The notes beneath the pieces are model-generated. The model searched no databases. It saw only the letters and a list, made by a program, of their open reading frames with translations, and had not been told where the DNA came from. This document shows, in pieces, positions 39,576 to 42,935 of a stretch of DNA of 64,000 bases. Made by a program: the position numbers and the translations under genes. The DNA comes from Kitasatospora cheerisanensis KCTC 2395 (GTDB lineage: Bacteria; Actinomycetota; Actinomycetes; Streptomycetales; Streptomycetaceae). The number at the start of each line of letters is the position of its first letter. The stretch's first letter is position 1. Location: the NCBI RefSeq assembly GCF_000696185.1, contig NZ_KK853997.1:1984761-2048760 (forward strand), read 5' to 3'.

Positions 39576-40819
39576 TCAGCCGGTCCCGGTGCGTGGCCGG
39601 GGGACCACCTCCACGGCCTCCGGGCCGTTGACGACCAGCGACGGGAGGCGGGCTGGCCGCTGCCCCGGTGCGGCCAGCGAGAGCTCGGGGAGCCGCTCGA
39701 ACAGGGTGCTGAGCGCGACCTCGGCCTCCAGCCGGGCCAGCGGTGCGCCGACACAGAAGTGCGGGCCGTGGCCGAACGCCAGGTGGCCCTTGTCCGCGCG
39801 GCCGGGGTCGAACTCGTCCGGGCGGTCCGGGTGTTCCCCGGGGTCGCGGCCGGCGGCGGCGAAGCCGACCACGATCGGGTCGCCCTTCGCGATCCGCACG
39901 CCCTCGCCGAGGTCGATGTCCTCCAGCGCGTACCGCAGCGGGACGTACATCACGGGGCCCTCCAGCCGGAGGGTCTCCTCGATCACGTCCGTCCAGTCGA
40001 TCGCGCCGGCCCGCAGCCGGGCGAGCTGCTCGGGGTGGGTGAGCATCTCCAGCGCGGCACTGGCGATCAGGTTGACGGCGGTCTCGAAGCCGGCGGCGAT
40101 CATGGTGAACAGCGTGCCGACCAACTCGTGCTCCGCCAGCGGCTGTTCGCCGGAGCGGTCGGAGAGCAGCAGGTCGGTGGTCAGGTCGGCACCCGGGTGG
40201 GCCCGCTTGTGGGCGGCCAACTCGCCGAGGCGCTCGTAGAGTTCGGTCTGCGCGGCGAGCGCGTCCGGCTCGGGCAGCGAGGAGTCCAGCACCCGGTCGA
40301 TCAGCGCGCCGAGCGCCTCCCGCAGGTGGTCCGGCACGCCGAACAGGTCGCAGATCACCGTCATGGTCAGCGGCCTCGCCAGGGCCGAGCGCAGGTCCGC
40401 GCGTTCGCCCGGTGCGAGCGCGCCGAGCGCCGCCACCAGCCGGTCGGCGGTCGCCTGCACCTGGGGGCGCATCGGCTTCACCCGGCGCGGCAGGAAGCTC
40501 GGGGCGATCCGGCCGCGGGCGGCGCGGTGCTCCTCGCCGTACCGGTTGACCAGGCTGTCCTGGAACGCCACCGAGCCCAGCACCCAGCCGTCCGGCACCT
40601 CTCCGATGCCCGGCCAGTGCCGGCGGAAGTCCCGGGACACCCGCGGGTCGGTGGTCAGCGCCTGGATCACGCTGTGCCTGGTCACCGCCCAGGCCCGGAT
40701 CCGCCCGGGCAGCTCGACCAGCACCGCCGGCCCCGCTCCCGCAGCGCGGCGGCCTCCGCGTGCACCGCGGCCGCGGTGGGGTCGAGGAACGGGCAGGCGG
40801 GCGCGGCAGGGTCGGACAC
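39576..40819 (-). CDS. Cytochrome P450, apparent frameshift near codon 30
   Basis: About 414 residues after repair. The ATG-equivalent GTG at 40819 follows GGGGAG by six bases and begins MSDPAAPACPFLDPTAAAV, the usual P450 N-terminus. The frame changes near 40730 (ALRERGP to AVLVELPG), where one C or G is missing. The rest is intact: I-helix MIAAGFETAVNLI (AGxET), ExxR in IEETLRLEG, and the heme loop FGHGPHFCVGAPLARLE with the cysteine ligand. It oxidises an unknown substrate, with electrons from ferredoxin. No ferredoxin gene adjoins. It lies 152 bases downstream of the encapsulin gene, same strand. Confidence 0.9.
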
Positions 40820-40971
40820 GGCGTGCTCCCCTCACGAAGGTCCTGGCTGCCCCATATGCTGCGCCCCCCGCGCGGCGTCCGGTAGCCTCCCCGCGCCTTT
40901 GGCCTGATTCCACTCCTCGGTCCGTCAACTCCCGTTCCAACAGGGCGCGTTGGCCCCACCAGTCGCCCGGG

Positions 40972-41772
40972 TCAGTGCGAGGTGAGGGCGACCGCGGCCT
41001 CGGCGGTGTGCAGTTGGAAGGTGAGCGACTCCTGCAGGTACAGGTGCACGGTGGCGTCGTCGTGCGAGAGGTAGCCGATGGACAGGTCCTCGCCGAGGTG
41101 CAGCTCGAAGTCGCCGCCGCGCGCGGAGAGCAGCACCGCGCCCTCGACGGCGGGCGCCCAGATGATCTCGCCGTCGAGCAGCCGGGCCAGGTGGTTGTGG
41201 ACCGGGTAGCCGTGGTCGGAGGTCTCGTTGACGGCGGTGTGGGTGTCGGCGCCGAGCAGCAGCGAGTAGGGGCCGCCGACGCCGGCCAGGCGCAGCGCGG
41301 TGAGGGCCCGGCTGACGGCGTTGGGGTAGTCGCGGACGTCCTCGGGGAGGGCGACCGGGTGGTTGCTGGAGCCGTCCCGGATGCCGGTGATGCCGGCGGC
41401 GGCGTAGCCGTCGAAGATGGCCCGGTCCTCGGCGAGGGCGATGGTGCGGGCGGCGTCCTTGACCGGGTCCCAGTCGGAGTCCTTGGAGCCGCGTTCGACG
41501 TCGTCCACGGCGGCCCGGGTGACGGTGAACGGGACGCGGAGCTCGACCAGCGGCTGGCACTCCCGGGCCCGGGCCCGGATGCCGTTGCCGGGGGCGGCGA
41601 TGTCGGCGAGGTGGCCGGTGCCGACCGCGGCGAGTTCCGGGCCGTCGGGGCCGAGCAGGTCGACGACCCGGCGGCCGGCCAGGTGCAGGGTGAAGGTGCG
41701 CCGGGCCTCTTCCTCGATCTCGGCCCAGGCGGCGGCGGAGACGGGCGCCAGTTCGCGGTGCAGGTTGTTCAC
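40972..41772 (-). CDS. Family 1 encapsulin nanocompartment shell protein
   Basis: 266 residues, the usual size. It starts at a GTG with GAGGAG nine bases upstream. Characteristic segments are NNLHRELAPVSAAAWAEIEE, RTFTLHLAGRRVVDLLGPDG, QPLVELRVPFTVTRAAVDDV, DVERGSKDSDWDPVKDAART and AEDRAIFDGYAAAGITGI. The HK97-like fold assembles into a hollow icosahedral shell that takes up a cargo enzyme through a C-terminal peptide. The GTG overlaps the repaired stop of the DyP peroxidase gene (GTGA), so shell and cargo are co-translated. Confidence 0.95.
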   Translation of the reverse strand: MNNLHRELAPVSAAAWAEIEEEARRTFTLHLAGRRVVDLLGPDGPELAAVGTGHLADIAAPGNGIRARARECQPLVELRVPFTVTRAAVDDVERGSKDSDWDPVKDAARTIALAEDRAIFDGYAAAGITGIRDGSSNHPVALPEDVRDYPNAVSRALTALRLAGVGGPYSLLLGADTHTAVNETSDHGYPVHNHLARLLDGEIIWAPAVEGAVLLSARGGDFELHLGEDLSIGYLSHDDATVHLYLQESLTFQLHTAEAAVALTSH

Positions 41773-42826
41773 GGTGCGGTACTCCTCTTCAGGCTGCCGA
41801 TGCGGAGACTGCCGTCCCGGGCCGGCGGGGGTGCGGGCGGGCCGGCGGCTGCGATGCCGACGCCGCGTCATGTCCGGCGCGGGCGGCGGCGGTGCCGGGC
41901 GCGGGCGGCGGGTCGCCCAGGAAGTCCGCGCTGGGGACGTGGAAGAAGGTGCCGGTGACGGCGGTGGAGAAGTCCAGCAGCCGGTCGTGGGCGGCGGGCC
42001 CGCGGCCGAGGAACATGTTGCGCAGCATCTCCTCGGTCACCCACGGGTCGCGGGCGTAGCCGATGAAGTAGGTGCCGCACTCGCCGCCCTCGGTGAACGA
42101 GCCGAACGGCATGTTGAGCCGCCAGATGTCGCGGTCCTCGCCGTCCGGGCCGGTGACGGTGTTCAGCGCGACGTGCGAGTCGGCGGGCTTGGCGGCGTCG
42201 TCCAGTTCGATGTTGTCGATCTTGGTGCGGCCGATCACGAGCTCCTGCCGCTCGGTGCTCAGCGCGTTCCACTCGTCCATGTCGTGCAGGTACTTCTGCA
42301 CGATGACGTAGGAGCCGCCGGCGAAGGCCGGGTCCTCGTCGCCGATCAGCACCGCCTCGGCGGCCTCCGGCCCGACCGGGTTCTCGGTGCCGTCGACGAA
42401 GCCGATCAGGTCGCGGCAGTCGAAGTACCGGAAGCCGTGGGTCTCGTCGACCACGCTGACGGCGGGGCCGAGCCGGCCGGTGATCTTCGTGGTGAGCTCG
42501 AAGCACAGGTCCATGCGCTCGGCGCGGACGTGCAGCAGCAGGTCGCCGGGGGTGGCGGGGGCGAGGTGCCGGGGGCCGGCCAGCTCCTGGAACGGGTGCA
42601 GCTGGGCGGGGCGGGGGCCGGCGAACAGGCGGTCCCAGGCGTCCGATCCGATGCCGACCACCAGGGCCAGCCCGTCGTGCGGGGCGCGGCTGCTCACCGA
42701 GCGGGTCAGCCCGCCGAGGTCGGGCAGCAGGTCGCGGACGGCCTGCTCGCCACCCTCCTCCAGGGCGAGCACCAGGAACACGGCGGCCCCGGTCAGATCG
42801 GCGAGGACCGGTTGGGGCTGCGGCAT
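41769..42826 (-). CDS. DyP-type heme peroxidase, encapsulin cargo, frameshift before the C-terminal tail
   Basis: About 352 residues after repair. DyP signatures are present: IGFVDGTENPVGPEAAEAVL (the GxxDG motif with catalytic Asp), SYVIVQKYLHDMDEWNALS, and RDIWRLNMPFGSFTEGGECG with GTYFIGYARDP. The His heme ligand lies at about SHVALNT or GPRHLAPA. As read, the frame ends AVSASAA at 41789. One base off it reads DGSLRIGSLKRSTAP then TGA at 41769-41771, an encapsulin cargo-loading peptide of the SLxIGSLK type. A single base lost between about 41800 and 41830 explains this. ATG at 42826, with GGGAG eight bases upstream. It uses peroxide to oxidise dyes and phenols, inside the shell. Confidence 0.92.
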
Positions 42827-42935
42827 GGAGAGGACTCCCAGGGGCTGCCGGGACGTTCGGACGCCCGCCGACCATACCCGGCAAAAGGTTCGAGACTCCG
42901 CCATAGCGCCCGAATCGGGCGTGTCCCCGGCCTGC

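Follow-up and report, generated by a model that had tools for sequence, protein, structure and literature searches.

The locus considered here raises the question of whether a DyP-type peroxidase of Kitasatospora cheerisanensis KCTC 2395 lacks an encapsulin cargo-loading peptide, as its assembled gene would suggest, or whether the peptide that can be read in another frame just downstream is its real C-terminus. The locus lies in a window of 64,000 nucleotides (the whole stretch of DNA analysed), and its features are collected in the table below.

Features of the DyP-encapsulin locus and of other broken genes in the window
Feature	Position	Strand	Evidence
DyP-type peroxidase ORF as assembled	41789..42904	minus	Pfam Dyp_perox_N and Dyp_perox_C, TIGR01413, PDB matches
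Cargo-loading tail DGSLRIGSLKRSTAP and stop	41769..41816	minus	-1 frame; in frame in relatives; DNA identical in CB01950
Likeliest position of the lost base (Pro/Ala linker)	41839..41843	minus	DNA alignments
Shine-Dalgarno-like AGGAG in the tail Lys-Arg-Ser codons (AAG AGG AGT)	41782..41786	minus	sequence
Family 1 encapsulin shell gene, 266 aa, GTG start	40972..41772	minus	PF04454, NF041155, PDB 9fn9 and 7boj
Cytochrome P450, one base missing at ~40728	39576-40940	minus	continuous in relatives (GPAVLVELPG...)
Split gene, DeoR/LacI-like regulator	~17381	minus	comparison with K. griseola
Split gene, sugar-isomerase-like TIM-barrel protein (inferred from sequence)	~12789	plus	comparison with K. 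griseola

The identity of both genes is clear from profile searches. The peroxidase matches PF04261 and PF20628 as well as TIGR01413 (272 bits; Pfam, NCBIfam), and 7bok and 9bkx are among its top PDB hits; the solved structures closest to it are encapsulated-type DyP peroxidases. The conserved part of the protein starts at about residue 27 of the ORF (MPQPQPVLADL...), and hence the ATG at 42826 is probably the true start. The shell protein matches Linocin_M18 with an E-value of 3e-95 (318.6 bits) and the encap_f1 model with 345 bits, against a cut-off of 100, its closest solved structures being Cfp29-type shells. The DyP gene sits immediately upstream of the shell gene, the position of the core cargo in a DyP-type family 1 operon.

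As assembled, the DyP ORF has the C-terminal end HPRRPGTAVSASAA, followed by a stop, and terminates in AVSASAA; the frame is lost over about the last 50 nt of the ORF. The initial annotation had claimed that a cargo-loading tail can be read one base over from the peroxidase, with a stop at 41769, and reading of the -1 frame confirmed this. From stop to stop, this frame gives RGVGIAAAGPPAPPPARDGSLRIGSLKRSTAP, limited upstream by a stop at plus-strand positions 41868-41870 and ending with the tail's own TGA at 41771-41769. The overlap of four bases that had been noted between this stop and the encapsulin start was found as well: the shell GTG (41772-41770) and the restored DyP stop together form GTGA at 41772-41769. 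Provided that the assembly is one base short, the peroxidase thus carries a C-terminal cargo peptide.

In GC-rich genomes, frames other than the coding one frequently stay open, and a mere resemblance to a cargo peptide, arisen by chance in such a frame, had to be considered. A degenerate DNA search pattern covering GSLx(I/V/M)GSL(K/R/Q)-like peptides that end at a stop codon has, however, a single match in the 8.17 Mb genome, precisely here between the DyP and shell genes. The same residues close the DyP protein in frame in orthologues, which already refutes this reading. Chance can therefore hardly have produced the tail, and we regard its probability as negligible.

Comparison with relatives supports the further claim that the shifted frame encodes the real DyP C-terminus. 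Of the 29 relatives from a first genome search, 27 have the tail in the DyP frame (all loci from L002 to L029 but L020; the script did not parse L030). In a second set, an in-frame tail was found in all Kitasatospora loci save the exceptions noted here, and some other DyP genes have no tail. The DyP proteins of K. griseola (PPAPSANPAVRDGSLRIGSLKRSPSP) and of the closest relative, Kitasatospora sp. CB01950 (PTPSANPAARDGSLRIGSLKRSTAP), run straight into it. From the tail codons through the TGA, the DNA is nearly identical to that of K. griseola and identical to that of CB01950, the latter implying that no decay or relaxed constraint is visible in the tail. Two loci deserve separate mention. In Streptomyces sp. 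CBMA123 (L020, also L040) the DyP ends in SPPPA without a cargo peptide and is directly followed by an apparent C-terminal encapsulin remnant; this locus seems to have lost its tail along with most of the shell gene. In the Kitasatospora relative G003 (L029), the DyP carries the cargo peptide twice in tandem, as SLGIGSLK and SLMIGSLK, with a repetitive PQTTG linker in between.

In DNA alignments, the linker has CCC here and CCCC in the two nearest relatives, leaving the window one base short. The exact position of the missing base is ambiguous within this C/G-rich linker, frame logic bounding it to about 41817-41867. Three further genes in the window are split by single missing bases (at ~12789, ~17381 and ~40728). 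The last of these, a cytochrome P450 gene, lies just downstream and 1.1 kb from the DyP break, and its N-terminus VSDPAAPACPFLDPTAAAVHAEAAALRERG is in another frame than the remainder.

These breaks were placed in context by a survey of indels in two regions of 400 kb, around the window and around rpoB, against the same regions in relatives. Only isolated coding indels of 1-2 nt on which two references agree in frame were counted, and the first 150 nt of genes were skipped, a strict filter that guards against ORFs overextended upstream of their true starts and against runs of N in a draft relative. Around the window, 188 kb of testable coding sequence yielded 12 deletions; around rpoB, 137 kb yielded 11; neither region had any insertion. 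The total of 23 isolated single-base deletions in 325 kb corresponds to ~7 private deletions per 100 kb, as against about 0.14 per 100 kb in three control relatives (1 deletion in about 690 kb). Of these controls, G061 has no indels in 131 kb and 132 kb, G035 has no deletions and 3 insertions in 138 kb, and G022 has 1 deletion and 3 insertions in 291 kb. The deletions fall in C/G-rich sequence, often beside runs of C or G. One gene has two of them (positions 310101 and 310484 of the first compared region), as does another near rpoB, within 72 bp; the genes hit include, as judged from their sequences, a PcrA/UvrD-type helicase and a UbiX-type flavoprotein.

Such a one-sided excess of deletions points to uncorrected sequencing or assembly error, and by extrapolation about 500 of them would be expected across 8.2 Mb. 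The sequence error that the initial annotation had implied behind the broken frame is thus backed by the excess in both regions. The missing DyP base was almost surely dropped in base calling or assembly, and the AVSASAA end is almost surely artefactual; the living strain, we infer, has the base.

A genuine recent deletion of one base, by which the cargo tail would have been removed and the shell left empty or with other cargo, is what the assembled sequence literally reads, and the tailless DyP genes elsewhere, together with the apparent loss of the tail and most of the shell gene in L020, lend it some plausibility. At the control rate, however, such an event would be some 50 times rarer than the artefact class. 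Moreover, the downstream tail is wholly undecayed, and the shell gene and the overlap are intact. We therefore consider a real deletion unlikely. Programmed -1 ribosomal frameshifting or transcriptional slippage, yielding tailed and untailed DyP and so tuning the loading, would account for the preservation of the alternative frame, and the shift is indeed of the commonest programmed type. Yet relatives encode the tail directly in frame, so that there is no conserved out-of-frame arrangement, and the same type of break occurs in unrelated neighbouring genes. Inspection of 41817-41867 revealed no slippery heptamer or long homopolymer, C/G runs being at most 5 bases, and recoding appears still more improbable than a real deletion. 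By far the best explanation, in which we have high confidence, is a standard DyP-type family 1 encapsulin operon in Kitasatospora whose out-of-frame tail is an assembly artefact. Automatic annotation of this assembly would wrongly record a tailless DyP and an orphan shell. Several hundred other genes in it are probably mis-split likewise, and other frameshift-based findings from this genome call for caution.

The tail codons may carry a second signal. The Shine-Dalgarno-like AGGAG lies 9 nt upstream of the encapsulin GTG, and this motif and the 4-nt overlap support, at the sequence level, the proposed coupling between tail and shell gene. Elsewhere, the tightness of cargo-shell operons has been read as suggesting translational coupling (PMC7925596, PMC8229669), and the DyP and shell genes may well be translationally coupled here too. 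When the Shine-Dalgarno core was scored over the three codons that begin with Lys, at least 4 contiguous core bases were found in 28 of 30 distinct loci with the Lys codon 10-14 nt before the shell start, and in 2 of 15 with the Lys codon farther away, although the Fisher value for near versus far loci overstates the significance since the loci are related. In the far loci the Shine-Dalgarno sequence is mostly elsewhere, and for one of the two exceptions (L027) a closer shell start was probably missed by the script. In 13 loci of the near set the Lys codon is followed by AGG, even though AGG makes up 3.3% of the Arg codons in core genes of a relative. Of the two tandem cargo peptides in L029, only the shell-adjacent one carries the motif. 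In other Actinomycetota, most overlapping pairs resemble CTGAAAGGA...ATGA, and two genomes whose shell start is farther off or set apart by a spacer (G358 and G348) have ends of the type SLR or SLRRR without the motif.

We consider it somewhat probable that in overlapping DyP-encapsulin operons the last cargo-peptide codons (SLK-R-S or SLK-G) also serve as the Shine-Dalgarno sequence of the shell gene, the residues after SLK then partly reflecting a constraint of ribosome binding rather than of shell binding. The SLK(R/G) consensus may partly stem from this double role. If true, the cargo tail and the translation of the shell are tied to the same nucleotides, suggesting that the published consensus reflects shell contacts only in part and that mutations in the tail may alter shell expression besides loading. 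No description of a Shine-Dalgarno sequence inside a cargo peptide, nor of a frameshifted encapsulin cargo, was found in a literature search that had most subscription journals outside its reach.

We propose that a flexible Pro/Ala linker and the C-terminal cargo-loading peptide SLRIGSLK close the peroxidase, that this peptide would dock DyP inside the shell made by the next gene, and that the shell gene begins on the peroxidase's own stop codon; the assembly is almost surely short by one base in the C/G-rich linker, among the several hundred such deletions expected genome-wide. By analogy, DyP is presumably packaged inside the shell. In the established family, a peroxidase hexamer docks through its C-terminal peptides against the inside of a T=1 shell (PMC8229669), and the sequence here holds nothing that contradicts this model. 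The Kitasatospora DyP-encapsulin operon is an already known kind of system. It resembles the DyP-type family 1 operons of Mycobacterium smegmatis, M. tuberculosis (Cfp29/DyP), Rhodococcus (DypB) and Brevibacterium linens (PMC8229669) in having DyP directly upstream of a Linocin_M18/encap_f1 shell gene, and has in common with these four systems an SLxIGSLK-type C-terminal cargo peptide and a tight gene overlap. Unlike them, it has a Pro/Ala-rich linker, a shell start that is GTG and not ATG, and, in this assembly only, a tail broken by one base. The loci of K. griseola JCM 3339 and Kitasatospora sp. CB01950 have a DyP that is ~90% identical, the same tail and the same GTGA overlap, but differ in having one more linker base, and their tail is therefore in frame.
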